Shown in pieces: positions 49 to 39,980 of a stretch of DNA of 48,677 nt. The translations under genes were made by a program, and so were the position numbers. Position 1 is the first letter of the stretch. Each line of letters starts with the position of its first letter. Source of the DNA: a virus; the IMG/VR virus record IMGVR_UViG_3300032285_000779, positions 1 through 48,677 of that record; one strand, 5' to 3'. The notes beneath the pieces are model-generated. The model had not been told where the DNA came from and did not search any database. It saw nothing but the letters and a program-made list of their open reading frames with translations.

Positions 49-975
49 CTAACCTGCAGAACCCCACATGCCGAGGGGATCAGACCAGCCGAAGCTATAA
101 CGCTCACGAGCCTTGTAGCGAACGTTACCTGTATCGAAGTCACCGTCCATGCTGTTTTGCAAGGCGATACGTTCGAAATGCTTCATGCCGTTTGGCACGT
201 CGGTAATCAAATACCAGCCGTTGCTGTCGGTCAAGAAGTGGTTCACTGTGTAACCTTCAGGGATTGCGCCCATCTGTTTCAGTGCGTTGATGTCGTTGTC
301 GGTAGTACCAACACGCAATTCGGTGTCAAGCAGACGCTTAGCAACGAACATCAATGCTGGAGGAACAACCATCTTACGGGGCTTGGCGGCGATCAACAGA
401 CCGCGCTCATCAGTCCATGCGGCGATTTGAATCACAGCATTTTCCAAAGAAGTTTCGTTCAAGTCAACACCAGTAGTTGGGCTGTTGTAGTTCACACCAC
501 CGTTAACGAGTGGGTGACCAACGCGAGTGCTAGAACTGTTGTTACCGAACAAAGTGACACCGTCACCGCCCAAGTATGAACCGTTGAAACCGTTGTTGAT
601 AACGGAAGCGGCTTTAACTTGTTTGGTGTAAGCCATAGCACGGGCCAAAGACTTGGTGTAACGAGCAGACAAGCTGTCGTACAAGTTATCTTCTACAGCT
701 TCTTCAGTGATGGAGAAGCCAAGAGCAATAGTCTCGTGGTTGTAACGTGCGGTGAAGGCTTCCTGTGCGTTGTCATACGCAATGGCTTGACCCTCGTTCT
801 TGACGGGAGCAGAAGCAAAGCCAGCCAGCTTTGTCTCTTCTTCAAAGCTACGCTCAGATTTCTCTGTTTCGTAGATTTCTTTGTGCTCTTCGCCGTAGCG
901 AGCGTATTCCATGCCGAACAAAGCGTTCAGACCGGGGAGCAACTCTTTAAGTAGTTGTGCGCGTGAAATTGCCAT
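49..975 (-). CDS. Major capsid protein (HK97-fold, gpT-like)
   Basis: This 308-aa protein is the likely major head subunit. An N-terminal helical arm (about residues 1-50) is followed by a core with the look of Mu gpT-like / HK97-fold capsid proteins, including a stretch around residues 75-125 rich in A, E and R. The C-terminus (residues 286-308) is the RYKARERYSFGWSDP type seen at the end of many phage capsid proteins. It is the last gene of the terminase-portal-scaffold cassette, where a capsid gene is expected. The start is set by an AGGAG site just upstream of the ATG at 975. No protease gene or cleavage domain is visible nearby. The C-terminal peptide recurs in the early gene at 24448. 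The fold family is inferred from sequence character and position. Confidence 0.88.
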   Translation of the reverse strand: MAISRAQLLKELLPGLNALFGMEYARYGEEHKEIYETEKSERSFEEETKLAGFASAPVKNEGQAIAYDNAQEAFTARYNHETIALGFSITEEAVEDNLYDSLSARYTKSLARAMAYTKQVKAASVINNGFNGSYLGGDGVTLFGNNSSSTRVGHPLVNGGVNYNSPTTGVDLNETSLENAVIQIAAWTDERGLLIAAKPRKMVVPPALMFVAKRLLDTELRVGTTDNDINALKQMGAIPEGYTVNHFLTDSNGWYLITDVPNGMKHFERIALQNSMDGDFDTGNVRYKARERYSFGWSDPLGMWGSAG

Positions 976-2100: not shown

Positions 2101-3051
2101 TCAGTTCTCCAGTTTTGCTACTTGTGCAGCATATTGCTGCGGGGTTAAACCTAATTTCTTTGCCAACGCAACTTGCGTTGTCGTTAGCTTGATCTTTCCT
2201 GCGCTCGTAGAACGAGACACAGAGGCAACCACTGTCGTAGGTTTCCGTTGAACCTCACCAGACCTTGGCTTGTCTTCGCCCCGACCAAACAGATCAGGAA
2301 ACGTTGACTTCATGCGAGCGTCAATTTGCTCGAAATATTCAGCAGAGCGGGGATCCACTCCGTTTGTGACTAGCTTTTGATGCAGCCCTAGTGCGTAGCT
2401 GGTGTATTCTTCAAACCCCTGAGATCCGAACCACTGGTTTTTTGCCTGCCAGCGCAGCGTCTTTTCGTCGGGCTCAACCTTTGCAGGTTGGGTTTGTCGA
2501 GGTTGTACATTAAATTTTTCTTCCTGTAAAGGGGTTGGACGATAATTTTTCGTTTGCTCCACTTTAATCTTGGCATCCATCACAGCCTCTTGAGCAGCAA
2601 TGATGGCGTCAGTGTCAAAAGCTTCTTGTGCTTCTTTCAACTTACGGCGTGCCATTTCTAGCTCGCTCTCAGCCTTTGACTTGGCGCCAGCAATGATTGC
2701 TTCTTGGCCTGTGTAGACGTTTTGTTTGAGGCGTTTGTTCTCCTCAATCAACTGCTGTGCAAGACGCTCCAGCTCCTGTTTCTCACGCAAAGTGGCTTCT
2801 TTAACACGGCGCTCATCGTGACGTGCGTGGGTCAGCTCTTTAATGCGGTTCTGAACTTTTTCTGAGTAAGACTCGATCTCTTCTTCACTGGGATCTGCGA
2901 CTTCACGATCAAGCGGTTTCTTGCCTCTGTCCGAAGCAGGCGTGTCGTCTTCAATCTCAATGTCTACTTCGCCATCGCCTTCAATTTCAAACTCGACGTC
3001 GGCAGTCTTTTTCTCTTCAATTTCGTCAGGGAACTTGAATTCATCTTTCAT
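2101..3051 (-). CDS. Scaffolding / capsid assembly protein
   Basis: A 316-aa protein with a very acidic N-terminus (residues 1-60), a long heptad-rich coiled coil (about 65-180, rich in E, K, R, A and Q), and a conserved C-terminal segment (287-314) of the form LTxxQVALAKKLGLxxxxYA. Such C-termini are typical of podovirus scaffolds and are expected to contact the capsid protein. It lies upstream of the capsid gene and downstream of the co-chaperonin. The start has a strong AAAGGA site. It should act inside the procapsid and leave before maturation. The C-terminal segment reappears at the N-terminus of the early gene at 24110. Confidence 0.8.
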   Translation of the reverse strand: MKDEFKFPDEIEEKKTADVEFEIEGDGEVDIEIEDDTPASDRGKKPLDREVADPSEEEIESYSEKVQNRIKELTHARHDERRVKEATLREKQELERLAQQLIEENKRLKQNVYTGQEAIIAGAKSKAESELEMARRKLKEAQEAFDTDAIIAAQEAVMDAKIKVEQTKNYRPTPLQEEKFNVQPRQTQPAKVEPDEKTLRWQAKNQWFGSQGFEEYTSYALGLHQKLVTNGVDPRSAEYFEQIDARMKSTFPDLFGRGEDKPRSGEVQRKPTTVVASVSRSTSAGKIKLTTTQVALAKKLGLTPQQYAAQVAKLEN

Positions 3052-8502: not shown

Positions 8503-8542
8503 GTCCCTCGGTTTTTCCAAATTTTTATAAAATTTTTTAGGG

Positions 8543-8562
8543 CACTGTGTTTTTAAACAGTG
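8543..8562. promoter_or_regulatory. LexA-like SOS box
   Basis: CACTGT-N8-ACAGTG is a perfect 6-base inverted repeat whose core is CTGT-N8-ACAG with an AT-rich centre (GTTTTTAA). This equals the Gram-negative LexA consensus. It lies in the divergent region just upstream of an AT-rich minus-strand promoter-like tract. Binding is inferred. Confidence 0.5.
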
Positions 8563-8718
8563 GGGGGTACTTCGGATTTTTTAAAATTTGATTTGCGGGT
8601 ATGGAACAGTGTTCACACCACGTGGAGGGGTGCATGGTCAAAAAGGGGTCGTGGGGGATGGGTGGGGTTCAGCCGTTCAGCTTTCCAGTCATTGTCAAGG
8701 GTATTTAGAAACGGATTG

Positions 8719-8734
8719 TGGTATACTAGATGCA
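8719..8734 (+). promoter_or_regulatory. Extended -10 promoter for the early operon
   Basis: TGGTATACT (8719-8727) matches the extended -10 form TGnTATAAT at all but one position. There is no good -35 at 16-18 bases, as is allowed for extended -10 promoters. The predicted transcript start is near 8734, the first base of a hairpin. Confidence 0.6.
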
Positions 8735-8787
8735 TCGATTGGGAGTTCCAGTCGATAGGTTGCCTCGCCCGTCTGCGAGGCTTTTTT
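8734..8787 (+). ncRNA. Two-hairpin leader RNA with intrinsic terminator
   Basis: Starting at the predicted transcript start, ATCGA-T-TGG (8734-8742) pairs with CCA-G-TCGAT (8748-8756) around a 5-base loop. GCCTCGC (8762-8768) then pairs with GCGAGGC (8775-8781), followed by six T. The second hairpin is a textbook intrinsic terminator placed before the first early gene. The leader may therefore be an attenuator, a short ncRNA, or an RNA-based antitermination site. Which of these applies cannot be told from sequence. Confidence 0.5.
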
Positions 8788-8803
8788 ATTTGGAGTCGTC
8801 ATC

Positions 8804-9178
8804 ATGACTAAATCATTCAATCGTTCTGCTGTATTCGCTGTGTTCAATCTTGCGGACAAAGAGTCCGCCAGTTTTACTGAACAACTACTTGAGCTTGGCA
8901 TCGGGTCACGCGCAGATGCGAGGCCACTTGCAATGGAGTGGGCATCTAAGAAGTACGGCGTGGCTATCAAGGATGGTCAACGCGGGCTTACCTTTGTGAA
9001 GCGTGACACAGACGCTGAGCGTGCAATGAACCGCGTGCTTCAGGTTTGCTTCCCTAGCGCAGACAAGCCCAAGTCTGGTAAAGCTATTGCCAACAAGTCA
9101 GACCCAGTCGAGTTGGCACTCAAGAAGTACAACGCACTGAGCGCAAGTGAGAAGCGTCGCTTCCTCAAGTCAATCTGA
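8804..9178 (+). CDS. Early protein of unknown function (124 aa)
   Basis: First gene of the plus-strand operon, 124 aa, with a TTTGGAG ribosome site directly after the leader terminator. It is basic and mostly helical. A middle section reads SRADARPLAMEWASKKYG, followed by a Lys-rich hinge and a C-terminal helix ending in SASEKRRFLKSI. No family recognised. Its coding sequence contains a copy of the GCGGAC hairpin (8852-8868), and another hairpin abuts its stop. As the first early product it could be a host-takeover or regulatory protein, but that is position only. Confidence 0.7.
   Translation: MTKSFNRSAVFAVFNLADKESASFTEQLLELGIGSRADARPLAMEWASKKYGVAIKDGQRGLTFVKRDTDAERAMNRVLQVCFPSADKPKSGKAIANKSDPVELALKKYNALSASEKRRFLKSI
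8852..8868 (+). repeat. GCGGAC hairpin copy 1 (in coding sequence)
   Basis: GCGGAC-AAAGA-GTCCGC, a perfect 6-bp stem inside the gene at 8804. Confidence 0.55.
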
Positions 9179-9717: not shown

Positions 9718-9974
9718 ATACCCACCACTTTACACAAGTGGACACCCACATGGGTATCGCGCAACCCGCGTGGATACTAGCGGTAACAGTCCACTGGTCC
9801 ACAATACCCATATATATAAATACCTTTTTCATTTAGATATATATATCTGTATGTTCGTGGGTATGTATTCTTTTCTTTGTTTTCAAGTTTGCCTTAGTGT
9901 TCTTGAAAAATGGTGGGTATCTTGGTCGAGGATAGTTAAAATGTCAGTGTTCATGCGGCTTTTCACATACCCAC
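9718..9974. repeat. Six ATACCCA/TGGGTAT iterons
   Basis: ATACCCA occurs on the plus strand at 9718, 9804 and 9967, and as TGGGTAT at 9751, 9858 and 9914. Most copies extend to ATACCCAC/GTGGGTAT. Successive distances are 33, 53, 54, 56 and 53 bases, close to whole helical turns, so the sites would face the same side of the DNA. An AT-rich segment lies between copies 3 and 4. This is the pattern of an initiator or regulator binding array. Confidence 0.6.
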
Positions 9975-9999
9975 TACAAGTGGACCACCTTGTAGACTG

Positions 10000-10032
10000 G
10001 TGGGCCAGTTACAAAACCAAGTGGGCCAGTTA
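10000..10032 (+). repeat. 12-base direct repeat before the Zn-ribbon gene
   Basis: GTGGGCCAGTTA occurs at 10000-10011 and 10021-10032, 21 bases apart (two helical turns), directly upstream of the ribosome site for the gene at 10056. Likely a tandem protein-binding site. Confidence 0.55.
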
Positions 10033-10055
10033 GCCCCAAACTATAAGGAGAAAGT

Positions 10056-10733
10056 ATGCAAATTAAAAATTGCACCAAGTGCGGCGAGTCACACGACATC
10101 GCCCAATTCAGGTACCTTGCCACGCTAGCGCAGACAAAGAAGTGGGGCAAGGCAGGCAATGTGCGCATGGAAGTGGAGTCGAAGTACTGCAAGAACTGCA
10201 GACCCAAACGCAAACCACCCTCTCAACTCAGCGCCAAAGAGATACACAACCGCGTGCAATCGGGCGACATGAGTGAGTACACCGCCAAGATGTTGCGTGC
10301 CAAGCTAGCCCGAGACGAGCGCAACAAGCAGGCGATGGCGGCACGCAAGCGATGGGAGAAGGTGTGGAGTGCCGAGCTCAAGGAAGTACTCAAGCCCATC
10401 GCCAAGGAAATCATCAGCGCCCGCAACACATGGCACTACGCCAGAGACAAGGGCTATGTCGACAAGGCGGTGTTCTATCACGAGTACATGGGGCTACTGA
10501 TTCACGAGAAAACCCACGCCGACATGAACTACGCCATCAAACCGCGCCGTCCCTCATCCTCAAGGTGGGCGGACTACATACATCCAAATGTATTCACAAG
10601 GGTCAGAGAGATGTGGGCACTCCTGCCCCCGAGTTTCAAGCACTCACACATACCACTGCTAATTAAATACCGCCCCGATGGGGCTCAACTCGCGGACAGT
10701 TTGTCCGCAACAACTCAAGGAGAAAGCAAATGA
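10056..10733 (+). CDS. Zinc-ribbon protein (225 aa), unknown
   Basis: A 225-aa basic protein. The N-terminus has CTKC (C6, C9) and a second pair in YCKNC (C45, C48), spacing that fits a zinc ribbon. A long basic helical region (about 60-115) and an aromatic C-terminal domain follow. The start has AAGGAGAAAG. Its last codons read through hairpin copy 4, so that repeat adds a short tail to the protein. It overlaps the next gene by ATGA. A nucleic-acid-binding role is likely. Lying just downstream of the iteron array, it is a candidate partner for it, but that is inference. Confidence 0.7.
   Translation: MQIKNCTKCGESHDIAQFRYLATLAQTKKWGKAGNVRMEVESKYCKNCRPKRKPPSQLSAKEIHNRVQSGDMSEYTAKMLRAKLARDERNKQAMAARKRWEKVWSAELKEVLKPIAKEIISARNTWHYARDKGYVDKAVFYHEYMGLLIHEKTHADMNYAIKPRRPSSSRWADYIHPNVFTRVREMWALLPPSFKHSHIPLLIKYRPDGAQLADSLSATTQGESK
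10692..10708 (+). repeat. GCGGACA hairpin copy 4
   Basis: GCGGACA-GTT-TGTCCGC in the last codons of the gene at 10056, just before the AAGGAG of the next gene. Confidence 0.7.
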
Positions 10734-13742: not shown

Positions 13743-14945
13743 ATGAGCTATGAGAAGATGACTCTCAATCAAAGAGTCCAAGCCGCCAACATTGACTGTA
13801 TGCGGCACCCCAAGTTCGCCTTGCTGTCAGGCGTCATCATGCTAGGTAAGAGCGAGGTGTCAGACAAGATACCAACAGCCGCGACCAATGGTCGTGACAA
13901 GAAGTATGGCGTTGACTTCATCACCCCGCTCACACGCAAGCAGATGCGCTACCTCGTACTGCACGAGAACTTCCATGTCGCACTCAAGCACTGCATCTTG
14001 TTCAAGCAGTACACACGCAAGATGCCCAAGCTCACCAACATGGCGCAGGACTATGTGGTCAACGCACTCATCGAAGAGATGGACCCCGAGTTCAAGTTCG
14101 TCGAGCGTCCTACTGAGTCGTTGCTCATTGACCGCAAGTACTTCGGTTGGTCGTTCCCACAAGTTCTCAATGACCTCATCAAGCAAGGCAAGCAAGAGCC
14201 TCAGAGTGGCGAGGGTGATGGCGAGGGCGGTGGTGACTTCGACGAGCCGCTCGATGCACATGAGGATGGTGAGTTCGACGACAACCCCATCGAGCAAGAC
14301 AAGCTTGGCAAGCAGATCGACGATGCCAACAGACAGGGCGAGATACTTGCACGCAAGCTCGCGGGTAAGGAAGCAGGCGGTCGTGACATACTCGGTACAG
14401 CCAAGGAACGCACGACTGACTGGAAGCAAGCGCTTCAAGAGTGGATTAGTTCTATCTCTGCGGGCGATGACAACTCACGCTTCTGTCCCCCCAACAAACG
14501 CTTGCTCGCATCGGGCTTCGTTATGCCATCACACTTCACTGAGTCAGTCGGTGAACTCATCCTCGCTGTCGACACATCGGGCTCTATGTATCCTTATTAC
14601 AGGTTACTCTTTGGCGAGATCGCTCGCATCTGCAACATCACCAAGCCTGCGGGTGTGCGTGTGCTTTGGTGGGACACTGCTGTGTGTGGCGACCAACAGT
14701 TCAAGCCTGCTGACTACGAGCAGATCACATCACTCATGAGTCCCAAGGGTGGTGGCGGCACAACTCCCGATGTAGTCGTTGACTATATTCGTGAGCACAA
14801 GATCGACGCCAAGGCGATCGTCTGGTTAACAGATGGTTACCTCGGTTGCGATACCCCCAATACCCCAATGCCATCTTTGTGGGGTGTGGTAGAGAACGAG
14901 TCATTCGTTCCTACTCATGGCAAAGTCCTGCGTATTTCTGTTTAA
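13743..14945 (+). CDS. VWA-like protein with metallopeptidase-like N-domain (DUF2201 type)
   Basis: A 400-aa protein in two domains. The N-terminus (about 1-140) has LHENFHVALKH, a zincin HExxH motif (H74-H78), as in the putative metallopeptidase domain DUF2201_N. A very acidic linker (155-190) follows. The C-terminal VWA domain has an intact MIDAS: DTSGSM (277-282), a Thr in GGGGTTPD (337-343) and LTDG (D364). VWA proteins of this kind partner with MoxR AAA+ ATPases, and one is encoded 26 bases downstream. The pair could be a metal-dependent protein-remodelling machine. An AGGAG site sets the start. Whether it is a peptidase is unproven. Confidence 0.82.
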   Translation: MSYEKMTLNQRVQAANIDCMRHPKFALLSGVIMLGKSEVSDKIPTAATNGRDKKYGVDFITPLTRKQMRYLVLHENFHVALKHCILFKQYTRKMPKLTNMAQDYVVNALIEEMDPEFKFVERPTESLLIDRKYFGWSFPQVLNDLIKQGKQEPQSGEGDGEGGGDFDEPLDAHEDGEFDDNPIEQDKLGKQIDDANRQGEILARKLAGKEAGGRDILGTAKERTTDWKQALQEWISSISAGDDNSRFCPPNKRLLASGFVMPSHFTESVGELILAVDTSGSMYPYYRLLFGEIARICNITKPAGVRVLWWDTAVCGDQQFKPADYEQITSLMSPKGGGGTTPDVVVDYIREHKIDAKAIVWLTDGYLGCDTPNTPMPSLWGVVENESFVPTHGKVLRISV

Positions 14946-14971
14946 TCTTTTAACTTTTGGAGAACCATATC

Positions 14972-16096
14972 ATGAACAACTTTTTATCTGCACAACAAGT
15001 ATTGAACCTCATCGCCGCTATCGGTGACAAGCGCACAGTTATCGTGGAGGGTGAGAACGGCATCGGCAAGACTGCGCTCTTCCATGCCCTGCGTAAGCTA
15101 CCCAAGTTCGCCAATCACATCGCAGTCAAGCCAGTCGATTGCACGCAGTTGTCTGACGGCTCGGTGTGGATGCCCGACCTTGATCGTGAGAACGGCATCT
15201 CTCGCGAGTTACCCAACGAGCGCTTCGGTGTCAGTGCCAACAACCAACTCGGTGTCAACAACTCCAAGCCAATCATTGTCATGCTCGACGAGATTGCCAA
15301 GGCACCGCAGTTCATCAAGAATGTTCTTGCGCCTATCGTGTACGAGCGTCGTGTCGGCAACCTTGACATGCCCGAGGGTAGCGTTGTGTTCTGTGCTACC
15401 AATCTATCAGTCGAGGGTCTCGGTGATTCCATCCAAGCGCACTTGCGTAATCGTCTTGTGTTCGTCAAGATGCGTAAGCCTAGCGCTGACGAGTGGGTCA
15501 AGTGGGCTACTGACAATCAGATCAACCCAATGATTATTGCGTTCGTTAGCAACGAGCCACGCGTTATGCAGTCGTTCATGGACTACGAGAAGGGCGGTAT
15601 GTTCGAGGGCAAGGACTTGTCCAAGGACAACGGCTTCATCTTCAACCCCAAGTCTATGCAACTTGCATACGCTACGCCTCGTTCACTTGTTGCGGCCAGT
15701 GACTTACTCGACGCAGGTCTCGGTGTTCTCGACGACGACACACTCGAAGCATCTCTCGTTGGTACTGTGGGCGCTACTACTGCGCAGGCATTGTCATCGT
15801 TCATTCGCTTCGGTCGTGAGATCTGCGAGTACTCGCGTGTCATCAAGTCACCTGACACTGCGCCGCTGTCCGACAACCCTACGGCGCAACTCATTCAGGT
15901 GTTCCAGTTCGTCACCCGTGTGGCCGACCGCACCGAGGCCGAGGCTATCGTCAAGTATGTGTGGCGTATGCGTGCAGAGATGCAGTCGATCTTCTGCAAC
16001 ACAGTGGCAACAAGTCAGCGCGTTGCTATGTTCGCAACCATCAACGAGTTCGGTCGCATGTTAGCCGAGCACAAGATCTTCTTCTCAACCAAGTGA
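14972..16096 (+). CDS. MoxR-type AAA+ ATPase
   Basis: A 374-aa AAA+ protein with Walker A GENGIGKT (27-34), Walker B VMLDE (103-107), sensor-1 ATN (142-144) and a likely arginine finger in LRNR (158-161). This is the order found in MoxR/CobS-like ATPases. It is downstream of the VWA protein, so it probably forms a ring that acts with it on a substrate. I chose the ATG at 14972 because TTGGAG lies 9 bases upstream. An in-frame TTG at 14957 overlaps that ribosome site. The substrate is unknown. Confidence 0.85.
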   Translation: MNNFLSAQQVLNLIAAIGDKRTVIVEGENGIGKTALFHALRKLPKFANHIAVKPVDCTQLSDGSVWMPDLDRENGISRELPNERFGVSANNQLGVNNSKPIIVMLDEIAKAPQFIKNVLAPIVYERRVGNLDMPEGSVVFCATNLSVEGLGDSIQAHLRNRLVFVKMRKPSADEWVKWATDNQINPMIIAFVSNEPRVMQSFMDYEKGGMFEGKDLSKDNGFIFNPKSMQLAYATPRSLVAASDLLDAGLGVLDDDTLEASLVGTVGATTAQALSSFIRFGREICEYSRVIKSPDTAPLSDNPTAQLIQVFQFVTRVADRTEAEAIVKYVWRMRAEMQSIFCNTVATSQRVAMFATINEFGRMLAEHKIFFSTK

Positions 16097-16104
16097 GGTA
16101 ACGC

Positions 16105-16461
16105 ATGGCCAATCGTATCAGCAACCTGATCGCGCGGCTGTGCAAGCCGCACATGTCTGAGCTAGGCAAAGAGCTACTCCCTCTCGTCTATGAGGGGGAG
16201 TGGAAGCTCGACGAGTACAGAATAACGCACAAGGATGCAGGCGTATCGTTTTGGGTAGCGAACGGCTTCAGTCGTTTTCGTTTGTACGACATTAAGGGTT
16301 TGCCTTACCACGATGAGTCGTACAGAGATGCGCTCAACTTTGCTGACAAGTGGGTGTTGTGGACATGCTATCAAAATCTACTAGACAGAATTAGCTTAAA
16401 ACCCGCAGAAGCCGCACTCAACATGGTGCGCATGCACAACATGAAAGGAGAAGTTAAATGA
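16105..16461 (+). CDS. MoxR-operon protein (118 aa), unknown
   Basis: A 118-aa protein, 8 bases after the ATPase stop with a GAGGT site. It has a mixed alpha/beta pattern: a basic helical start, then DEYRITHKDAGVSFWVANGF and a Trp-rich helix (FADKWVLWTCYQNLLDR). It overlaps the next gene by ATGA. It may be an accessory factor for the ATPase/VWA pair by position. No family recognised. Confidence 0.62.
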   Translation: MANRISNLIARLCKPHMSELGKELLPLVYEGEWKLDEYRITHKDAGVSFWVANGFSRFRLYDIKGLPYHDESYRDALNFADKWVLWTCYQNLLDRISLKPAEAALNMVRMHNMKGEVK

Positions 16462-16700
16462 CAGACCCAGTAACAAACTCACTGGCATTACAAACGCAGT
16501 TTGGTGATGATGAATTAAAGAAGGAGATAGACAACCACATCATCGAGCTTGCAATGGCCGCCGCACACCAAGTCGTGCTCAATGCGTTCAACAACCCCGA
16601 GTACTTCAAGCGACTCATTGTCAACAACAACTACGAGTTTGAAACAGCCGTTGCACGCTCGATGAAAAACTTTCTCAACAACCCTCGTAACATTTATTAA
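16458..16700 (+). CDS. MoxR-operon small protein (80 aa), unknown
   Basis: An 80-aa helical protein beginning in an ATGA overlap, with AAAGGAGAAG upstream. It contains KKEIDNHIIELAMAAAHQVV and ends FLNNPRNIY. Mostly amphipathic helices, with no membrane span of normal length. Function unknown, and co-translation with the previous gene is likely. Confidence 0.6.
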   Translation: MTDPVTNSLALQTQFGDDELKKEIDNHIIELAMAAAHQVVLNAFNNPEYFKRLIVNNNYEFETAVARSMKNFLNNPRNIY

Positions 16701-16711
16701 GGAGTCTTATC

Positions 16712-17596
16712 ATGACAACAACTACACCCCGCCACAATATCGACACTTGCGCAATGCTCGTGGAGTTCAACGCTTCTGTGTGGACAGCACGCAAGCTAGA
16801 CAAGTCAACCACCGACGAGGTGGTGGCAAGCAAGAACGCAGGCGCCAAAGATGCCGCGCGTGTTAACAAGCATCTGCTCGCAGGTCGTACCGAGTTGGAT
16901 GTCATCCAACAAGCAGTCAGCCGCGCTCGTCAATTCGTATACGACAACACCGCGCCTTGGTCTGACTCAGGTCTGCGCCTCTTACCTACTGTCAACTTCA
17001 TGAAGTTCACCGAGCGCATGAATGACTTCGAGGAAGAGATGGAGGCCTTGGTCAAGGCGTTCGTTGCAATCTATCCTACGCTCATCACAGCGCAGGCCTT
17101 GGCTCTTGGCGATATGTTCAAGAGAGATGACTACCCCACAGCCAATGAGATCATGACCAAGTTCTCGTTCCGCGTTAACTACATGCCAGTCCCATCATCG
17201 GGTGACTTCCGTGTGGATGTGGGCAACCAAGCACAGGCAGAACTCAAGGCACGCCTTGAATCTCTGACCCAAGAACGCATCGACTCTGCTATGGCAGATG
17301 TGCGTGAAAGACTTAGCACTCACTTAAAGCGTATGTCAGATCGTCTTACGACTGACTATGTGGGCGGTGAAGCTAAGCAACGGCGTTTCCACGACACCCT
17401 TGTCGATGGTGCGCTTGAGTTGTGTGACCTCACTAAGTCATTGAATGTGACAAACGACATGGCTTTAGAGGAAGCACGCAAGCAGTTGGAACAGCTACTC
17501 GTTGGCGTAACACCTGCTGATCTGCGTAAGAACGAGGCCATCCGTCAAGATGTCAAGAAGAATGTCGACGCCATCCTCGACAAGTTCAACTTTTAA
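16712..17596 (+). CDS. DUF3150-like protein of the MoxR/VWA module
   Basis: A 294-aa, largely helical protein. Its N-terminus (LVEFNASVWTARKLD, residues 16-30) resembles the start of DUF3150 proteins, which I recall occurring beside CobS-like ATPases and CobT-like VWA proteins on plasmids and integrative elements. Later parts form long helices (ERMNDFEEEMEALVKAF, RLESLTQERIDSAMADVRE). AAGGAG lies upstream. Its position completes a three-part VWA, AAA+ and DUF3150-like module. The family call rests on N-terminal resemblance and context, so it is moderate. Confidence 0.6.
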   Translation: MTTTTPRHNIDTCAMLVEFNASVWTARKLDKSTTDEVVASKNAGAKDAARVNKHLLAGRTELDVIQQAVSRARQFVYDNTAPWSDSGLRLLPTVNFMKFTERMNDFEEEMEALVKAFVAIYPTLITAQALALGDMFKRDDYPTANEIMTKFSFRVNYMPVPSSGDFRVDVGNQAQAELKARLESLTQERIDSAMADVRERLSTHLKRMSDRLTTDYVGGEAKQRRFHDTLVDGALELCDLTKSLNVTNDMALEEARKQLEQLLVGVTPADLRKNEAIRQDVKKNVDAILDKFNF

Positions 17597-19493: not shown

Positions 19494-19775
19494 ATGGATG
19501 CACATACACACGAATACAAATACGTCAAAGACACAAGTGAGTCGCAGTTCAAAGACGCGATGCGCTACCGCAGGCTGAAGTTTTTCTTAGATACCTTGGT
19601 CATCATGGACAAACACAAAGGCTCCCTACATTTCACGGACGGCACAGACTTCGACAGCTACATCGACACGCTGTCGATTGGGCCAGTACCACTCACCACT
19701 AAAGACATCACAGCACACGCGTTGAAGCTATTGGAAGACCAACTCACAATGACATACAAGGAGTCAAGGAAATGA
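19494..19775 (+). CDS. Unknown protein before nuclease (93 aa)
   Basis: A 93-aa protein starting MDAHTHEYKYVKD, with helical segments and GSLHFTDGTDFDSYIDTLSI. TGGAGAAAC precedes the ATG. It ends in ATGA overlap with the VRR-NUC gene, so it belongs to the replication unit by position. No family recognised. Confidence 0.6.
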   Translation: MDAHTHEYKYVKDTSESQFKDAMRYRRLKFFLDTLVIMDKHKGSLHFTDGTDFDSYIDTLSIGPVPLTTKDITAHALKLLEDQLTMTYKESRK

Positions 19776-23450: not shown

Positions 23451-23717
23451 ATGCCTTACGTAAACAAACCCCGCCCCTATGCCAAAGAGTACGAGCAGTA
23501 CGATGGCACACCCGCTGTCAAAAAGAAACGCGCCGCACGCAACAAAGCACGCGCCATGATGGAGAAGGAAGGCCTCGTGCACAAGGGTGACGGCAAAGAT
23601 GTAGACCACAAGAAGGCGCTCTCAAAAGGCGGCAAGACTGTGCGCTCAAACCTGCGCGTCAAAGATGCAAGTGCGAACCGTTCATACGCTCGCAAATCAG
23701 ATCACTCAATGAAATGA
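23451..23717 (+). CDS. HNH-like small basic protein (88 aa)
   Basis: An 88-aa, very Lys/Arg-rich protein. DVDHKKALSKGGKT (about 53-66) and SNLRVKDASANRSYARK (about 69-85) resemble the HNH core (DH...GG...N...C/S..N) with the last histidine replaced. It is conserved in phages near replication genes in my experience. It may be a nicking enzyme or a non-catalytic DNA-binding HNH relative. An AAAGGAATATC site sets the start. It overlaps the next gene by ATGA. Confidence 0.62.
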   Translation: MPYVNKPRPYAKEYEQYDGTPAVKKKRAARNKARAMMEKEGLVHKGDGKDVDHKKALSKGGKTVRSNLRVKDASANRSYARKSDHSMK

Positions 23718-24094
23718 TGAACTCGTTACTAAACGCAATAGGACTTCAAGGCGCGGTAGGCTCCGCCCAAAATGTAGCGGGTCAGCAGTACGCGGCGAAT
23801 CAGTACACCATGGCGATTTCAAATGCGGCGGCGCAACAACACACAGGCAAGATCGTCGGCAACGTGGCGATTGCCGCTACCAGTAAGGAGTTAGACCACG
23901 AAGCCTACAACACGTCGATCGAGAACCTAATCAATCTCTGGATAACACGTTTTGGAAACGAATGGATTGACCTAGCGACTATTGAGGACGAAGAGTTCTT
24001 TAACCTAGCGTACCGAAGACTGAAACAAATGGGTGAGCTAGAAGTTCACTACCTTACAGATCGAGCGCGGTACGTGTGCCGCAGACCAGAATAA
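23714..24094 (+). CDS. NLW-domain paralog 1, with A/Q/G-rich N-terminus (126 aa)
   Basis: First of three tandem paralogs. The C-terminal part (about 62-126) carries NLWITRFGNEWID (residues 74-86), matching NLWxxRYGxxWVD and NLWxxRFGxxYVD in the next two genes, preceded in all three by a histidine 12-14 residues earlier. Residues 1-60 are rich in A, Q, N and G (AQNVAGQQYAANQYTMAISN), unlike the other two, and resemble low-complexity virion-protein segments, but I cannot match them to a particular one here. ATGA overlap with the HNH-like gene. Function unknown. See the finding on virion-terminus mimicry. Confidence 0.65.
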   Translation: MMNSLLNAIGLQGAVGSAQNVAGQQYAANQYTMAISNAAAQQHTGKIVGNVAIAATSKELDHEAYNTSIENLINLWITRFGNEWIDLATIEDEEFFNLAYRRLKQMGELEVHYLTDRARYVCRRPE

Positions 24095-24109
24095 ATCAAG
24101 GAGAAGCAA

Positions 24110-24451
24110 ATGGGAAAAGTAAAACAATCAATCATGCTAAACCCTGCACAGGTGGCAATCGCTAAAAGCTCAGGGATGGATATAGAAGAATACGCTAAAA
24201 AATTACAGACTTTGTTCCCCACAACAGTGACTGTGTTCAACCCTAACAAGCACCCTGCGTACTCAATACCTTTATCAGAGCTAGCCAATCTGTGGCGTGC
24301 GCGTTACGGAGACATGTGGGTAGACGTGTCGGAGTTGGACGGTGAGTTTTGGGAAGAAGCTTCACAGCGACTACACCAAAACAAAATGATGGAAGAGGTT
24401 AACCATCACAGCGACACGACACCTTGGTCTAGGCTGAAGGAGGGCGTGTGA
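24110..24451 (+). CDS. NLW-domain paralog 2, with scaffold-like N-terminus (113 aa)
   Basis: A 113-aa protein with AAGGAGAAGC upstream. Residues 8-35 (IMLNPAQVAIAK then GMDIEEYAKKL) align without gaps to residues 287-314 of this phage's scaffold protein, with 11 identities in 28 and several conservative changes. The C-terminal half has NLWRARYGDMWVD (60-72), the domain shared with both neighbours. An early protein with a late-protein terminus is unusual. It may bind the scaffold's partner, the capsid protein, or imitate scaffold to a host sensor. It overlaps the next gene by GTGA. Confidence 0.7.
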   Translation: MGKVKQSIMLNPAQVAIAKSSGMDIEEYAKKLQTLFPTTVTVFNPNKHPAYSIPLSELANLWRARYGDMWVDVSELDGEFWEEASQRLHQNKMMEEVNHHSDTTPWSRLKEGV

Positions 24452-24780
24452 GCACATTGAAATACAAAGCTACTGAGCGATACGATTTCGGTTGGACTGA
24501 CCCGCGAGCAACGTTCGGCGTTATAAAAGTAAACCAAAGAAGGCACACAGGACTTGAAGAAGTCTCGACCGAAGTGTTGCGCAACTTGTGGTTGGTGCGG
24601 TTTGGTGAGCTCTATGTGGATGCTAAGTTGATGCACGACACACGCGCCGAAGACATTGCAGATGTTGTACAAGAGTTGGCAAACCGAGGATACGTGCGCC
24701 AAGAAATGACAAGAAGCATGTATGCCGAAAAACCCATATCTCGGTTCAGATTACTGGAAAAACAAAATGCAAATCGTTGA
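24448..24780 (+). CDS. NLW-domain paralog 3, with capsid-like N-terminus (110 aa)
   Basis: A 110-aa protein started by GTG in a GTGA overlap, with GAAGGAGG upstream. Residues 6-24 (YKATERYDFGWTDPRATFG) match residues 287-305 of the major capsid protein at 12 of 19 positions. The codons differ widely, so this is not a recent DNA duplication. NLWLVRFGELYVD (46-58) links it to the two preceding genes. It ends 14 bases inside the helicase start. A capsid-tail mimic, decoy or capsid-assembly regulator are possibilities, and none is shown. Confidence 0.72.
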   Translation: MSTLKYKATERYDFGWTDPRATFGVIKVNQRRHTGLEEVSTEVLRNLWLVRFGELYVDAKLMHDTRAEDIADVVQELANRGYVRQEMTRSMYAEKPISRFRLLEKQNANR

Positions 24781-26329
24781 AGACAAAGCGCTCGTACTGC
24801 GCACACGCAACCCACACAAGTACGCAATTATTCCGAAGCACAAAGTTCTTTCCGAGGACAACGGCATCTATGAAGTAGCTGTGTACTGGGGTCTTGATGA
24901 AGCACGAGTGCTACGCAACCTCGGTGTAAAAGATGTGCCGTCGCCTATCACTAGGCGCTATGACTGGCCCGGAAAGTTTATACCAATGGCTCACCAAAAA
25001 GAGACGTCGGCTTTCCTCACACTTAACCGCAGAGCGTTCTGTTTTAATGACCCCGGAACTGGCAAAACATTATCAGCACTATGGGCGGCTGACTTCTTGA
25101 TGAAGCGCGGTGAAGTTCGTCGTGTGTTGATTCTCTGCCCACTGTCTATTATGCACAGCGCATGGATGGGCGACATCAACCGAAGCGTGATACACAGAAG
25201 CGCCATTGTCGCCCACCATACGCAAGCCTCGCGGCGTATTGAAATGATTCAGCAGGACTACGAGATTGTGATTGCCAACTACGATGGCCTCAACTTGATT
25301 GCTTCTGAGATCAACGCAGATGGTAGGTTTGACTTAGTGATTGTTGATGAAGCCAACGCGTATAAGAACCCGTCTACTCGTAGATGGAAAACACTTGCGT
25401 CAATCATCAAGCCTGAAACATATTTGTGGATGATGACTGGTACGCCTGCATCACAGTCGCCTGTGGATGCGTACGGCTTAGCAAAGTTTGTAAACCCAAG
25501 CGGTGTGCCTAAGTTCCAGACATCATGGCGCGACAAGGTGATGAACAAGATCAGCCTGTTCAAGTGGTCACCAAAGGCCAACGCTAAAGACCTCGTGTTT
25601 GAAGCACTGCAACCCGCAATACGTTTTACAAAAGACCAGTGCCTCGACTTGCCACCAGTCATCACAGTCACACGCGAAGTGCCGATGACACCACAGCAGG
25701 CCAAGTACTACAAGCTACTCAAAGAGCAAATGCTTTTCCAAGCGGCGGGTGAAACAATCAGCGCAGTCAATGCGGGCGTTGCTGTAAACAAGTTGCTACA
25801 AATAAGTTGTGGTGCCGCATACACAGACGAGAAAGAAGTTGTGGAGTTCGATGCCGCGCCTCGTCTTGGTGTACTAGAAGAAGTGTTGGAAGAGACAAAC
25901 CGCAAGGTAATTATCTTTGCGCTGTTCCGCTCAAGCATTGACACCATCGTCACATATCTCACTAAACACGGCTATGCCGTTGACCAGATTCATGGCGACG
26001 TGTCTGCAACAAAGCGCGGGCAGATCATCAATGACTTTCAAACAACTGACAACATCCGTGTGTTGGTGTTGCAACCACAAGCGACAGCCCACGGGATTAC
26101 CCTAACTGCCGCTGACACAGTTGTCTTCTTTGGTCCACTAATGTCTGTTGAGATGTATACGCAGTGCATAGCACGAGCAGACCGCAAAGGTCAAGACTCA
26201 GACAAGGTCACTGTGGTGCATATTGAATCAAGTCCCATCGAGAAGAAATTATTTAAGGCAATGAATACAAAAGTTTCTGACCACGCTTTGCTTGTCGGCA
26301 TGTTCGACAGTGAAGTAAAAAATATTTAA
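24767..26329 (+). CDS. SNF2-like DNA helicase / translocase
   Basis: A 520-aa superfamily 2 ATPase. It shows AHQ (Q-motif-like, about 75-77), Walker A NDPGTGKT (94-101), DEAN (194-197), TGTP (224-227), a second RecA domain, and motif VI ARADRKGQ (about 469-476), the SNF2-like arginine-finger pattern. It probably unwinds or remodels DNA during phage replication or recombination. The ATG at 24767 is preferred over the in-frame ATG at 24722, because GGAAAAA lies upstream and the overlap with the previous gene is only 14 bases. Confidence 0.88.
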   Translation: MQIVEDKALVLRTRNPHKYAIIPKHKVLSEDNGIYEVAVYWGLDEARVLRNLGVKDVPSPITRRYDWPGKFIPMAHQKETSAFLTLNRRAFCFNDPGTGKTLSALWAADFLMKRGEVRRVLILCPLSIMHSAWMGDINRSVIHRSAIVAHHTQASRRIEMIQQDYEIVIANYDGLNLIASEINADGRFDLVIVDEANAYKNPSTRRWKTLASIIKPETYLWMMTGTPASQSPVDAYGLAKFVNPSGVPKFQTSWRDKVMNKISLFKWSPKANAKDLVFEALQPAIRFTKDQCLDLPPVITVTREVPMTPQQAKYYKLLKEQMLFQAAGETISAVNAGVAVNKLLQISCGAAYTDEKEVVEFDAAPRLGVLEEVLEETNRKVIIFALFRSSIDTIVTYLTKHGYAVDQIHGDVSATKRGQIINDFQTTDNIRVLVLQPQATAHGITLTAADTVVFFGPLMSVEMYTQCIARADRKGQDSDKVTVVHIESSPIEKKLFKAMNTKVSDHALLVGMFDSEVKNI

Positions 26330-31269: not shown

Positions 31270-31447
31270 GGGCTTCTTTGTTCCGGGGCTAGACGTTGAG
31301 ATGGTGAGGGAGTTGGGCTTACGTGCCGCTCTCCCCCACCGAATCAATGCGCAGGCTGTCGTGGGTATCAGGAAGAACCAATTAGGCGTATGGTTTTATC
31401 GGAAATTTCCCGCGTCGTATTTGCAAGCGCAATCTTCATCTTCCTGA
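31229..31447 (+). CDS. Small conserved phage protein (72 aa), convergent overlap
   Basis: A 72-aa protein beginning MEILYPWAKLKPGEGFFVPG, with ELGLRAALPHR and GVWFYRK. I recognise this pattern from a small family in other phages (FFVP...RELGLRAA), which supports it despite the odd location. It overlaps the primase end by 41 bases and runs 80 bases head-on into the 3' end of the giant minus-strand gene. It is the last plus-strand gene. Function unknown. Confidence 0.65.
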   Translation: MEILYPWAKLKPGEGFFVPGLDVEMVRELGLRAALPHRINAQAVVGIRKNQLGVWFYRKFPASYLQAQSSSS

Positions 31448-34400
31448 TGTCGTCAAGTTGTTTACGCTTGGCTTCAGGAGACAGACTAGATGCGGCAATA
31501 GCTCGCTCGGCTTGCGTCAGCTTGTTCATATTGGCTTTGAACTTGTCGCCCAGTTCGGCCTCCATGTACTCGTTGCCGCGCTTGGTCAGCAAGGCTTGAG
31601 CTTCCTGAGTTTTGCCCTCATGCATCAGTGTGCGCACAGTGATACGCACACGCTCGTCTTCATTCATGCGCATGTAGACTGAGTTGATGATGCCGCCTGC
31701 GTCGTTGGGTTGGAACGCACCGCCCACGATTGGGTACTCAGACAAGCGCTTGACTGCCTGCTCTGGTGTCTCTTTTGCAGGTACGCCAAGGCTGATCGCG
31801 TGTAGGAACGCCAGACCCATTGTGCCTGTGTAGCCGTTGACGATTGCCTCCATCTTGATGGGGGACAAGCCAAATGTTTTACCAACCAGCTTAGCCATCT
31901 CAGATGTATTAGCGCGGTACTGTTCTTCAGGCAACAGCTTCTTCTCACGCTCAGACAGAATGTCGCGGCCTGTGTAGAACGACTTCTCAAGCGCCGCCTC
32001 AACGGTTGGCTTGATGGCTTGAGGCAAAGGAATCAGCGTAGGAATCTTGAGGCCGTTGCCAATGTCGATAGTGGGCATGCTCGTGCCGCCCGGCAAGGTC
32101 TGAATCAAGATCTGGTTAAACGCTTGAACTGCTTCCTCACTGCCATGCTTCTGAGTCATGCTGTTGTACAGCGCCTCGGGAATAGCCTTGAAGATGTAGC
32201 CAATCTCAAACGGCACAGGAATCTTCAGCGGCTCGTCCAGACCGGGCACGCGTATAAACCAGTTGCCATACTTCTGATCGGGCGTAGCGTTCTTGTAGGC
32301 TTCGTCGTCCTGCATCGCCATGGCGTAGAGAATAGAAGCCGCCGCCATCATGCCGCCGCGCATCAACAATTTCTCACGAATACGCAGTTGGTCGTTGAAC
32401 GGCATCTTTCCTGCCAACGCCTTGTACAAAACATTCAAGCCCTGAATCTGTGCGTTGAAGAAAGGAATCAATGCGTTGGCTACGTGGATGCTTGGAGATG
32501 CGCCGCGCTTGTTAAAGTTCATGGACTCCAAAGACATCAGCGTAGCTTCCATCTCAGACAGCCCTTGCTCAATATAACTGTTGTACTGAGCACGTCGTGT
32601 GAGCGCGTCAGCCTCCATACCCAAAGCTTCAAATTTACCCAACGCTTTCATCCATCCGGACTGGCCATCAGTAATGTCACGCAGAATCTTGGACAAGTCC
32701 TCGCTTGTACCTTTGAACTGCTGACCACCAACAATGCCGCGTTTCTCCAAAGTTTCTTTGGCAGTGCCGTTTATTTCTTTCAAGGCGCCAATGATAGGCA
32801 TGAAGTCAGCGCCAGACATAATCGGTGCGGCCAACGAATCACGGAACAATTGCTTGGCCATGTACAAGGGGCTCAGCGTCACAGCCTTACGCAAACCTTG
32901 CGCGGGAAGCGCCATGGCACGCAACAGGAACGGCATCTGTGTTGGGATACCCTCCATACCCTTGACCAAGATGTCAGCAGGCACGCCTGTCTCAAACTCC
33001 TTGTTGCCGATCTTCACTTTTTCTGTGTGAATAATCGCGTAACGGTCATCGCCGTCTACTTTAAATTTGACAACGTCTGCGCCTTCGGCCTTTTTAACCA
33101 ACGTGGCGGACTTCAGATCAAGTAGTTCCATGACTGCGTTTTTGGTTGCAAGGTTACGCATGCCCATGTCCACCAACATGTTGGTGTTCTGCACCGAGCT
33201 GGTCATGAAGTCAAGGATGGCTGTGTCACCGCCAACCAACTCTTTCAAGTAAGGCTGATCTGCAATACTGCCAATACGAACAGGGCTCTCGTTGCCGATC
33301 ACCAACTCGACGACGCCTTTGCGCTCACGATAGAACGGAATGTAATCGTCCTGCGCCACCAAGCGTTTCACAAGTTCTTTAGACAAAGCGCCTGTGCTGG
33401 CCACAAAGTCCAACATGTCGCGGTTGTACTGGTTGTACTCTTTGCGTGCGGCTTCAAAGATGTACTTTAACTCGGGGTTGCTCTTGACCAGTGCAGTTAC
33501 GCGGTCAAGCATTTCTTGTGTCAACACAGGTTTGCCGTTGGCGTCTGTGCCAAAGTTAAGCGTCTCAATACCTTTGTTAGCGGCACGAATAGCGGCCATG
33601 TATGTTGTAAAGGCTTGGTTGACAGCTTCGCCGTTACCAATATATTGCTTGGCATCTTTCAGTGTGTTCACAATACTGCCGAGGTTGGCTCCGCCTGAAG
33701 TCTCAACCACACGCTCAATGCGTCCATCGCTGCGGGTAATTTCCTTGATGGCAGGAGCACCGTCAGCCACAGCCTTAGACACAATGTTCATGCGTTGGTC
33801 ATATGTGCGCAGGTAGTACAACATCTGCGTACCGGCAAGCCTGTCCATGTATTTGGCTAAACGCTCAAAGCCTGCAAAGCGGTCAACAAGCTGTGTCTCA
33901 AACGCAAGGCCGGTTGTGTTGGCTTTGATTGAATCAAATATCGTACGCTTTTGCGCCACCACACGGCTGATAACGTCACCTATCTTTGCGAAGTCCTCGT
34001 TGTAGACAGGCTCTTGATACGCCAAGGACTCACTTTTCAAATCTTGGATTGGCTTGTTGTTCTCGTACAACTCAGCTTTGGTGTAAGCCAAAATTTCTTC
34101 TGTCAGCGCCACAGACTCTGCAAACAAAGACTGGGCAGCCTTAGCAGGCATGTCAAAAAACTGCGACATGATCTCCACAAAACGCGTGAAGATGCTCTTG
34201 CGTGGTTTATCCGAAGGGATTTCGGTCAGCAGTTTTTGGAAGTCGCGGTTGGCAAACAACTCAGCAATAAACTCGTGCTCGTTCTTTAGCGCGTAGATTG
34301 ACTGGCGTGTCCGAGCCAAACCCATACCGTGCTGACGGAAGTACGCTTTGCCTTCTTTGGTTTCAAGCCAATCAATTGTTTTTGTGCGCAGTTCATTGAC

Positions 34401-37400
34401 CCGAGCCTTAAGCTCGGGGCTGTCGTTCATAGCGCGAGACGTAGCGGCGTGTGTCAACTCATGCAACAGAACTTTGTTGGCGTTGCTGTTGAATCTAGAG
34501 GGGGCACGGGTGTACACAACGTTAAGGCGTGTGTTATACAAACCTGCGGTGTTGTTACGGATGACGCCGTCGATAGCATACACACGCCCCTCGCCATTTT
34601 CTGCGGGAGAAGATTCAAACACATCCGCCAAGCGCATAAACAACTCGCTCACTTGCGGAGAAGATGTTCTCTTAGCGCCGTACTTAGCCGCATCTGCAAA
34701 CGTCATGCCGTGGAAAGGCGCGTCTGTAACAAACTCCGTACCAAGTTCTTTCGCAACAGCGTCAGACGTAAAGTCGGCTTCTGTGTACAAATTTTTAAAA
34801 ACCGTTTTCGGCGTAGGCATAGCCGTACGGGTCTTAGGAGGCGCGCTTGGTTTAGGGGGCACAAAAACTGCCGCTGTTTTACTTGTAGCCGCCCTCTTTA
34901 CGGCTGGCAGTTTACGTGTGTCAGTAAAGTCTGACACGCTCATTTGGCGTACAACTTCTAAATGCTTTTTGGCTTCCTCGTACATGTCGCGGTACTCAGG
35001 GTCACCCGCAAAAATCTCTACGTCGGCTTTGTAAGTCAACTCAGCCTTTTTCAGCGCCATCTCAATACGTTTCTCAAACGTACTTGCTCTTGATCGCTCC
35101 GCGTACATTTCTACACGATACGCAACGCTACCCTCTGCGCCGTCAACCATGAAAGTGCGCTGGTTCTTGTAAAAGACCGGAGCCTTTCTAGATTCCATTC
35201 CCAGATTGTCAAAGTCATCACGCAGTGTTGCAGTCAAAGATGCTGTAATGGAATCATAGTCATCGGCCATGAAAGGCTCATTGGAGAATTCTCCATAGAT
35301 GCCTGACTCTCGCTCAGCTTTCATACCTTCGGATGCGGCTTCAAGTGCTTGGCGGTAGCCAGTACGCAAAGGTTTCTTTGCCCCCATAGCGGCAGTGCTC
35401 GGCGCCGTAGCGGCACGTTGTTTCTTAGCAGGTTTGCCTTCCAACAAAACTTCGCGTTGAGCTTCCAAAGACTCAATGTTTTGCATCACGCCAGCTTTAG
35501 CAAGCGCGGCATCGCGTTCGGCTTGTGGCAAAGACTCGTCCTCGGCCATCTTCTTAAGCGCAGACAGCTCGTTGGGGAACTCTTCGTAAGCGCCAAGCTC
35601 TGTGATAAGGTCTGCAACTTCCTTGTCGATTGTTTCGACCTGCGCGGCTTTCTTAAGTGTGTTTTGTTCAGCTTCGTATGCGCGGTCAGCTTTGTCTTGA
35701 TCTTCCCTGCGCAGTTTGTCTGCTTCTTTTTCAGCGGTGCTCTTAATTTCTTCAGTCGTGCCTGCCTGACGTTTAACGCCTTTACCGCCCAGCTTGTCTT
35801 TCCAGAACTCTTCCATCTGTTGTTGTTCAGATTTGGCGGCTTCTTTAAATTTAGTTGCGCGTGTCTCAGCCGCCTTGACGGTTTGTTTCTGAACTTCTAA
35901 GTTCTTCATTGCTTGGCGATAAGCAAACGGATACGCGTTGGGGTTGTCAGTGACGAGTTCCCCGCGCATGGCGGCAAGGTTAGCTTCCTGCATTTCCAAA
36001 TACTGGCGTTCTGTCTTGACGTTGCCATCAAGCATCGCTTGGGCTACTGCGTAGCTGCCATCAAATTCAGTTGAGCGCTCTTCCAACAAGTCGCTAAGTT
36101 CTGTCTCTTGTTCCTTAATTTTGTCTTCAAGGTCGTCGATAATGCCCTTCTTCTCTTCGTAGCGGAACAACTCGTATGTGGCCAGCTCGGTGCGGTTTGC
36201 ACCTTCTTTCTGCGCCAACACGCTGTCAAAGCGCTTCTTGATCTTGTCCAGTTCAGCCTGCTCTTTGATGAGCGTTGACTTGGCTTTTTCAAGATCAGTG
36301 CTAGCTTTACCAATAACGGGGTCGAGCATGAACGCCAGAGCGCCATCCATCTCACGACGAGCGTTGGCAATCGCTTTCTCCACAGTGGCTTGATACACGT
36401 CTCTTTGTTTACGTACATCTTCTTCAGCAGTAAGAAGCTGTTTCTGCGCGTCAGTCAAAATAGCTGAACCTCGCATCACGTCTTTGAGGTACTTCAAGGT
36501 GTCGCGCAGTCCTGCCATACGCTCACTAACTTCTTTAGCGGCGGCTCTTACATTGGCGTTGGTGTCCTGCATGAACGATAACAACTGGTTGTCCGCATCG
36601 GCAAGGCGGCGTCCTTGCGCCAACAAGTTCATAGCTTCTTGAACACGCGCCTTATATTTGGGCAACTCTTGTGTACGGAACTCGTTTAGCAAACGCTCAG
36701 CGGTTGCCTGCTCTTGTGGCGTCAGCTTTTGCTGTTTGGAGTATTTGTAGAGAATGTTTTTCTCTTCTTGCGTCTTGCCTGCTTCTGGCATACCTGCAAA
36801 GACTTTGGCCATTTCTTCGTCAGTCCAACGGCTTGTGTCTTTCCAAAAGAACTGCGTGTCCTTCTTGATGCTGTCCATGCGCTCTTTGATTTGTTCAATC
36901 AAACGCAAGCGGTTCTTACGCGTAGCTTCTCTGGCCAAACGTACCGGCTCAGTCTTCTTGAACAGCTCTTTGGCTTTGGCCAGCGCTTCCCACACAGGTT
37001 TCATGCGCGGTGACTTGGCAAAGTTTGCCGGTGTTGCACGGATGTAGCCAAGGTCTTCTTGCGCCTCAGGGAACAGTGCCTTCTGACCTTCGGGTACAGT
37101 TTCCGTAGCACGAATAGCATCATTGATGGCTTGGATGTCTACCTGTTTGACGTCGCGTCCTGCAACAATAGCGTCTACAACAGGCTCAACCTTGTCCAGA
37201 ATATCACGGGTAGCTTTGCCTGCGTCCATGATGTCAGCGGCGGCATTGAGTGCATCACGAGCACCGGGGCGCATACCGCCCATCTTGGCCATCTTGTTGC
37301 GCACAAATTCTGTACGGCGAGCCAACTCGCCACGAAGTGTAGTGGCGGTTTCGCCACGGGCTTCGGCAGTCTTCTTAGCTTCCTCTGCGGCAAACTGACG

Positions 37401-39950: not shown

Positions 39951-39980
39951 AGTATTCCTAATTGTGCGGCTGGAGATAAT

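Follow-up and report, generated by a model that had tools for sequence, protein, structure and literature searches.

Three adjacent genes in the IMG/VR virus record IMGVR_UViG_3300032285_000779, whose 48,677 bases constitute the window analyzed here, raise the question of why two of three related small proteins encoded among replication genes should begin with what look like pieces of scaffolding and coat protein. As listed in Table 1, the genes of the coat protein (MCP) and the scaffold lie on the minus strand, followed there by open reading frames (ORFs) read as GroES-like, portal, and TerL, while the replication-type genes of the window, including the three-gene array of P1, P2, and P3, lie on the plus strand. 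Because P1 to P3 lie in the replication cluster and run on the opposite strand from the virion genes, we infer that they are early genes. The start of P1 overlaps the small HNH-like gene ahead of it; homologs 67 to 95% identical to this gene occur in ten array-bearing loci, and it precedes the array wherever a relative's contig spans that spot. In several relatives, the P1 frame extends, out of frame, through the 3' part of this gene. Downstream, the ORF of the SNF2-like gene is listed from 24722, with a probable start at 24767; its L010 homolog begins MQIIEDKALL.

Table 1. Positions and strands of the features of the window
Feature	Extent	Coordinates	Strand	Basis or remark
MCP	308 aa	49..975	-	phrog_371 major head protein, E 5.4e-17; source family of N-, H-, and C-tags
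MCP last long strand	residues 285-306	58..123	-	model strand 285-297; C-tag counterpart
MCP spine helix	residues 90-130	586..708	-	model helix 99-127; H-tag counterpart
MCP N-terminal helix	residues 2-36	868..972	-	model helix 5-27; N-tag counterpart
Scaffolding protein	316 aa	2101..3051	-	phrog_28737, E 3.1e-36; adjoins GroES-like gene; S-tag source family
Scaffold C-terminal segment	residues 287-314	2110..2193	-	11/28 identical to P2 residues 8-35
Small HNH-like gene	88 aa	23451..23717	+	phrog_4590, E 1.3e-21; directly upstream of array
P1	126 aa	23714..24094	+	A/Q/N-rich N-terminus; NLW domain from about 23909
P2	113 aa	24110..24451	+	scaffold C-terminus-like tag, FNPNK linker, NLW domain
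P2 S-tag	residues 8-35	24131..24214	+	segment HMM, E 1.9e-5; scaffold C-terminal helix-turn-helix
P2 NLW domain		24266..24445	+	AF2 model, predicted winged helix
P3	110 aa	24448..24780	+	GTG start overlapping P2 stop; MCP C-terminus-like tag and NLW domain
P3 C-tag	residues 3-24	24454..24519	+	segment HMM, E 1.4e-12; last strand of MCP
P3 NLW domain		24562..24702	+	HMM, E 1e-13; alignment
SNF2-like helicase gene		24767..26329	+	sequence motifs, without family search; immediately downstream of array

The original prediction had described the three genes as sharing a domain around the motif NLW, and this description holds: the NLW HMM matched P1, P2, and P3 at 5e-25, 1e-22, and 1e-13, respectively. 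A histidine ahead of the motif, proposed as a further common feature, is present 12 to 13 residues upstream in all three window proteins but is not conserved in their homologs. The AF2 model of P2 reached a mean pLDDT of 83.6 overall and about 90 or more in the NLW domain, and residues 53 to 113 aligned with Zalpha/MarR domains (VIA Z, 5 to 6.1; Foldseek best E, 0.04), scores that are weak yet consistent across many winged-helix chains. The model predicts a winged-helix fold, beta wing included, for the NLW domain; the label "effector" that it had been given is conjectural.

We searched for relatives of the NLW domain and of fam2, a second early family unrelated to NLW that lies upstream of the polymerase gene (RYRRLRxLEVVIM..GAKYLKxxDLDxYID). 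P1 to P3 had no Pfam match at the cutoff, and a 60-member NLW alignment gave as its best PHROG matches phrog_6944 (3e-4; two members of unknown function) and the scaffold family phrog_28737. A sequence search of the PDB returned no solved relative of NLW, and neither tblastn against 50,697 phage records nor a profile scan of bacterial genomes returned a clear NLW or fam2 relative. Both families were absent from the stretches examined, mostly partial genomes, of the phages HTVC023P, HTVC027P, 023Pt, DSL-LC04, Pag-Yong1, RW, QDWS535, and ctpbd312, in which no tags were seen except within MCP and scaffold themselves. By these searches, NLW and fam2 are named by no family library or solved structure. 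Scans of viral contigs yielded 80 loci (numbered with the prefix L) that carry P1-type genes plus P2 or P3 relatives, and the NLW HMM collected 145 distinct proteins from 90 loci. The homologous arrays sit in phage contigs of 56 to 66 kb that have MCPs. Three NLW classes recur, namely P1 (ending LTDRARYVCRKPE), P2 (FNPNK linker, NLW, and the ending WxRLKEDA), and P3 (TEVLRNLW).

The N-termini of P2 and P3 had been matched to virion proteins from sequence alone, and the counts proved exact: 11/28 residues are identical between P2 residues 8 to 35 and scaffold residues 287 to 314, and 12/19 between P3 residues 6 to 24 and MCP residues 287 to 305. When each N-terminus was compared with all virion proteins of the window, the real score was reached by 2 of 1,000 shuffles for P2 and by 0 of 1,000 for P3, so both matches exceed chance. 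In the AF2 model, the P2 tag forms helices at residues 12 to 20 and 25 to 35. Among the 50,697 phage records, tblastn with P2 matched, weakly (E, 0.1 to 0.6), the scaffold C-termini of 023Pt_psg01, DSL-LC04, and HTVC027P, where the scaffold is the gene after GroES. P3 matched the 3' end of Caulobacter phage MCP genes (E, 3e-4) and Alcaligenes phage QDWS535 (E, 1e-3); within its own record, it retrieved its own MCP (E, 2.2e-5). The resemblance is thus to scaffold and MCP families and not solely to the copies of this phage, and, judged by these comparisons, it is real. The MCP profile covers P3 only at positions 275 to 297 of 299, and the remainder of P3 is the NLW domain; by sequence, P3 lacks the full-length HK97 MCP fold with its A, P, and E domains. 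P1 was also considered as a virion mimic, on the basis of its low-complexity N-terminus, and was rejected. Its score against all window virion proteins was equaled by 204 of 1,000 shuffles, 23% in a repeat, and no tag was found by segment profiles, by blastp of NLW N-termini, or by an H-profile enriched with known tags.

The AF2 model of the MCP (pLDDT, 86.5; Foldseek, 1e-11; VIA Z, 16.2) points to an HK97-like fold closest to encapsulins; a PDB sequence search with the MCP gave a weak match only. This protein aligns better with encapsulins than with most phage capsid proteins, N-terminal helix included. The gene order GroES-scaffold-MCP also occurs in DSL-LC04 and 023Pt. On the model, the elements copied in the tags described below each correspond to one secondary-structure element of the MCP, namely the N-terminal helix (N-tag), the spine helix (H-tag), and the last long strand (C-tag), while the S-tag copies the scaffold C-terminus.

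The search for further tags covered 25,894 ORFs from 182 loci. Partial matches to whole-protein MCP and scaffold profiles were almost confined to NLW and fam2 proteins. When the N-termini of 144 NLW proteins were run with blastp against all other ORFs, a database that contained the flanking virion genes, they returned MCP, scaffold, their fragments, a tagged protein of L180, and one marginal match at E = 0.01; no tag from portal, TerL, or tail proteins appeared in that search. Four segment profiles (N, H, C, and S) were built from genuine MCP and scaffold segments alone. Among non-virion ORFs, the N profile matched five fam2 proteins (1e-10 to 2e-7) and the NLW protein of L100 (2e-5); the H profile matched eight NLW proteins (best, 1e-7) and the L180 protein (2e-7); the C profile matched 23 P3 proteins, with that of the window the best; and the S profile matched seven P2 proteins (best, 1e-9). 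With MCP, scaffold, and their fragments set aside, all credible matches were to NLW, fam2, or one protein of another phage lineage. Two hundred shuffled N-terminus sets gave 0 matches at 15 bits, compared to 1 (N), 7 (H), 23 (C), and 7 (S) for the real set. Moreover, when the same profiles were applied at E < 0.01 to 3,840 previously unseen ORFs from later-fetched loci, all 20 matches fell in NLW (14 S-tags and 2 C-tags) or fam2 (4 N-tags), no other protein passed this threshold, and S-tag homologs scored down to 4.6e-13.

The predicted combination of a shared domain with interchangeable virion peptides is thus supported, and the MCP N-terminal helix and spine helix join the scaffold C-terminus and the MCP strand as tag sources. 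The P2 slot carries an S-tag in the window, L010, L026, L027, L028, L091, and L099, an H-tag in L007, L008, L010, L030, L033, L034, L063, and L080, and neither in other P2 proteins; the P3 slot carries a C-tag, an N-tag (L100), or none (L056 and L065). In L100, the P3-slot gene at 8480-8857 (+) has an MCP N-terminus (MAISRAQLLQELLPGLEEMFG) replacing the usual MCP C-terminus. The C-terminus of fam2 corresponds to the MCP N-terminus in L010, L074, L076, L080, and L085, and the fam2 proteins of L074 and L080 show a weak scaffold-like C-terminus (about 5e-5 to 1e-4 by shuffling). L010 has all four elements, and L080 has three plus the weak S-like one. Tags stand at the N-terminus in NLW proteins and at the C-terminus in fam2, indicating that the original position in the virion protein is not kept. 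Many P2 and some P3 proteins lack a tag or have a degraded one, and the invariant Phe of the C-tag is relaxed to F/M/T/I.

Several other candidates were considered. The fam2-like gene of the window (19494-19775) was rejected as a carrier of an MCP N-terminal tag, having no significant match. Likewise, tags from other virion proteins in P2 of L084 and fam2 of L010 were discarded, as their marginal single p values fail correction for 25 tests x 15 targets. L180:3505-3825 (+) encodes a third kind of carrier, unrelated to the other two and tagged with the MCP spine helix, after a gene like that of the window's VWA/DUF2201 protein; the polymerase of the L180 phage lineage is 37% identical to that of the window. 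At L180:9971-10078 (+), inside the ORF 9744-10253, an MCP C-terminus (PYKTSERYAFGWSDPRAIYGN) is encoded in another frame of an early gene; it looks like the end of a coat gene that was captured, either lying out of frame or read through a frameshift.

Such a captured end suggests that virion DNA of this kind can be acquired, and fragments of virion genes might have been fused to early genes by illegitimate recombination and then drifted without function. The decay of tags in some clades fits this account, which we nevertheless consider quite improbable: neutral capture would hardly be limited to MCP and scaffold, to four structural elements, and to at least three carrier families, and dN/dS is about 0.3 over the P3 tag in most P3 lineages. 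Taken as rough averages, since divergence is high, the dN/dS values were 0.32 (tag), 0.52 (linker), and 0.25 (NLW domain) for P3, compared to 0.36, 0.34, and 0.11 for S-tagged P2, where tag and linker are alike. In one P3 subclade with degraded tags, the ratio was about 1.1 in both tag and linker. Judged by these ratios, the MCP-strand tag of P3 is under purifying selection overall.

We then asked whose virion proteins the tags resemble. The tagged genomes with a findable MCP mostly have one 86 to 99% identical to that of the window. In the first set of tags, the best score was to some foreign protein over the own clade for 14 of 14 C-tags, 6 of 7 H-tags, and 7 of 7 S-tags, with a foreign protein set partly selected by C-tag similarity; for N-tags of that set, own-clade and foreign scores tied or nearly so. 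The expectation of a tight match to the resident phage's virion proteins was therefore not supported, in that many tags, C-tags above all, score higher against other phages. That the tags are aimed at foreign phages was rejected in turn, given the bias of the foreign set to C-tag likeness and the own-like tags among later finds (the S-tag of L238 and the N-tag of L223). We conclude from these comparisons that the tags follow coat and scaffold families broadly, without a consistent match to the resident copy.

To what end these elements are displayed is suggested by their choice. The tags are confined to MCP and scaffold, each is one structural element, and they are swapped among slots and families. 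In the SPP1 procapsid, the scaffold touches the N-terminal helix of the MCP and the beginning of its spine helix (PMC6813328); in 80alpha, the C-terminal helix of the scaffold rests against the N-arm helix, with its hook inserted into the A/P cleft (PMC5644958). Encapsulin cargo peptides bind a site formed by the N-terminal helix and the P-domain (PMC6668986). Set against the published scaffold-coat contacts, the N-, H-, and S-tags represent both sides of that contact; in our reading, the C-tag is a neighboring strand, placed in the P-domain, outside the published scaffold contacts. Such a selection from the scaffold-coat interface favors docking on capsid assembly, and we give a probability of roughly 40% to the view that the tagged proteins are competitors, probably of the replication phase, that dock on coat or scaffold assembly. 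Small carriers, the NLW winged helix and in relatives also fam2, would each borrow one coat or scaffold element. P2, displaying the coat-binding C-terminus of the scaffold, would bind coat protein in place of the scaffold, and P3, displaying the last strand of the coat protein, would bind that strand's partner in folding or assembling coat protein. The likely outcome would be competition with the normal scaffold-coat interaction, by which assembly might be delayed early in infection or that of a co-infecting phage disturbed. The binding, the competition, its timing, and the identity of the target capsid are our inference. More tentatively still, a phage may keep a set of early "assembly-interface" proteins on unrelated carriers that jointly interrupt or gate its own or a rival's capsid assembly; by tag content, the full set would be present in L010, and in L080 too if the weak S-like match counts.

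Several observations count against docking. The MCP spine helix and last strand form the core of a folded domain, and a free copy of either may be bound only by unfolded or nascent coat protein. The relaxed Phe of the C-tags argues against simple strand replacement. Moreover, P1 is untagged, and the tags are not consistently resident-like. The loss or degradation of tags noted above, together with the P3 subclade at about 1.1, indicates that the function is dispensable.

The same elements could instead bring NLW and fam2 proteins into the procapsid as cargo for the next host. Scaffold-fused P22 cargo is loaded by a short terminal peptide that binds the interior of an HK97-fold shell. Encapsulin targeting peptides, likewise short and terminal, occur on unrelated carriers and attach to the inside of such a shell at the site described above (PMC6668986). 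The S-tag is the scaffold's natural coat-binding peptide, and the tags are terminal and connect to their carriers through variable linkers. We regard such loading as unlikely all the same, since one targeting peptide would do where four elements are used, the genes lie in the replication cluster and not among virion genes, and three of the four elements are copies of the shell protein, not ligands of the shell. The difference from both cargo systems is that most tags, as putative loading signals, are pieces of the shell protein itself.

Alternatively, the tags might fill bacterial sensors of coat or scaffold before the real coat protein appears, without triggering them. Capsid peptides could act on Lit and CapRel, both of which recognize coat protein; the difference is that these two are host sensors whereas the tags are phage-encoded peptides. 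The highly variable, swapped N-termini would suit an arms race, as would the early-gene position. We doubt such a role even more than loading: known defense sensors also read portal, terminase, and tail proteins, for which no tag was found; we know of no role of scaffold as a defense trigger; and a peptide with the whole epitope could itself trigger the sensor. CapRel-type defenses that bind newly made MCP do exist (PMC9712102). The carriers might, finally, bind each other through their borrowed elements, N with S and H with C, and not capsid proteins. Adjacent complementary tags occur, with an H-tagged P2 beside a C-tagged P3 in nine loci and an N-tagged beside an S-like fam2 in L074 and L080. 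However, the neighbors in the window, L027, and L028 are S and C, no known pair, many C-tagged P3 proteins stand beside an untagged P2, and H and C are partners within one MCP fold, not between proteins; we hold this to be very improbable. The sequence cannot separate decoys, assembly regulators, and capsid targeting, the roles originally proposed; the choice of segments favors engagement of assembly. Altogether, docking on assembly ranks first in likelihood, followed by cargo loading, sensor decoys, neutral capture, and docking pairs.

For docking on assembly, the nearest comparison comes from satellites. CpmB of SaPI1 in Staphylococcus aureus carries a scaffold C-terminal segment that competes with the scaffold for coat protein (PMC5644958). 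By its profile match to the scaffold C-terminus, P2 has the analogous segment. CpmB is satellite-borne, whereas the phage of P2 has its own MCP and scaffold and ORFs read as TerL, portal, and GroES; CpmB is helical and dimeric with its segment at the C-terminus, whereas P2, by prediction a winged helix, has it at the N-terminus; and CpmB acts in capsid redirection, while P2 is described here from sequence and a model. Ccm of SaPIbov5 is a coat protein homolog that enters or alters assembly (PMC8569155). Like Ccm, P3 is a non-native protein with coat-protein sequence; Ccm, however, is a full coat homolog building pentamers, whereas in P3 just one strand, about 22 residues long, is joined to an unrelated domain. 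As for the carrier, T7 Gp5.7 is a small winged-helix phage protein, the winged helix of NLW being predicted only; to our knowledge, no virion tag has been reported for Gp5.7. A search of open papers found no description of such tags or sets. CpmB is a precedent for the scaffold tag, and Ccm is a coat homolog that serves in a conflict of this kind; for single coat elements on unrelated early carriers, in sets, we found no precedent in the open literature. We know of assembly-sabotage tricks from satellites, and not from phages acting through their own early genes.

If the tags bind coat or scaffold, this group of uncultivated phages would use dedicated early proteins to control or sabotage the assembly of capsids, and natural selection would have supplied, in the tags, a peptide probe for every element of the interface between scaffold and coat. 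As decoys, the tags would instead be a sign that bacteria have sensors of coat and scaffold yet to be described.

Two further parts of the window recall Planktothrix phage Pag-Yong1. In the early region, a VWA/metallopeptidase-like gene (DUF2201), an AAA ATPase gene, and a DUF3150-like gene follow one another at 13743-17596, and the Pag-Yong1 annotation has a similar set. On the virion strand, a single ORF of 2,871 aa spans 31368-39983 (-), a size like that of the "large polyvalent protein" of Pag-Yong1.
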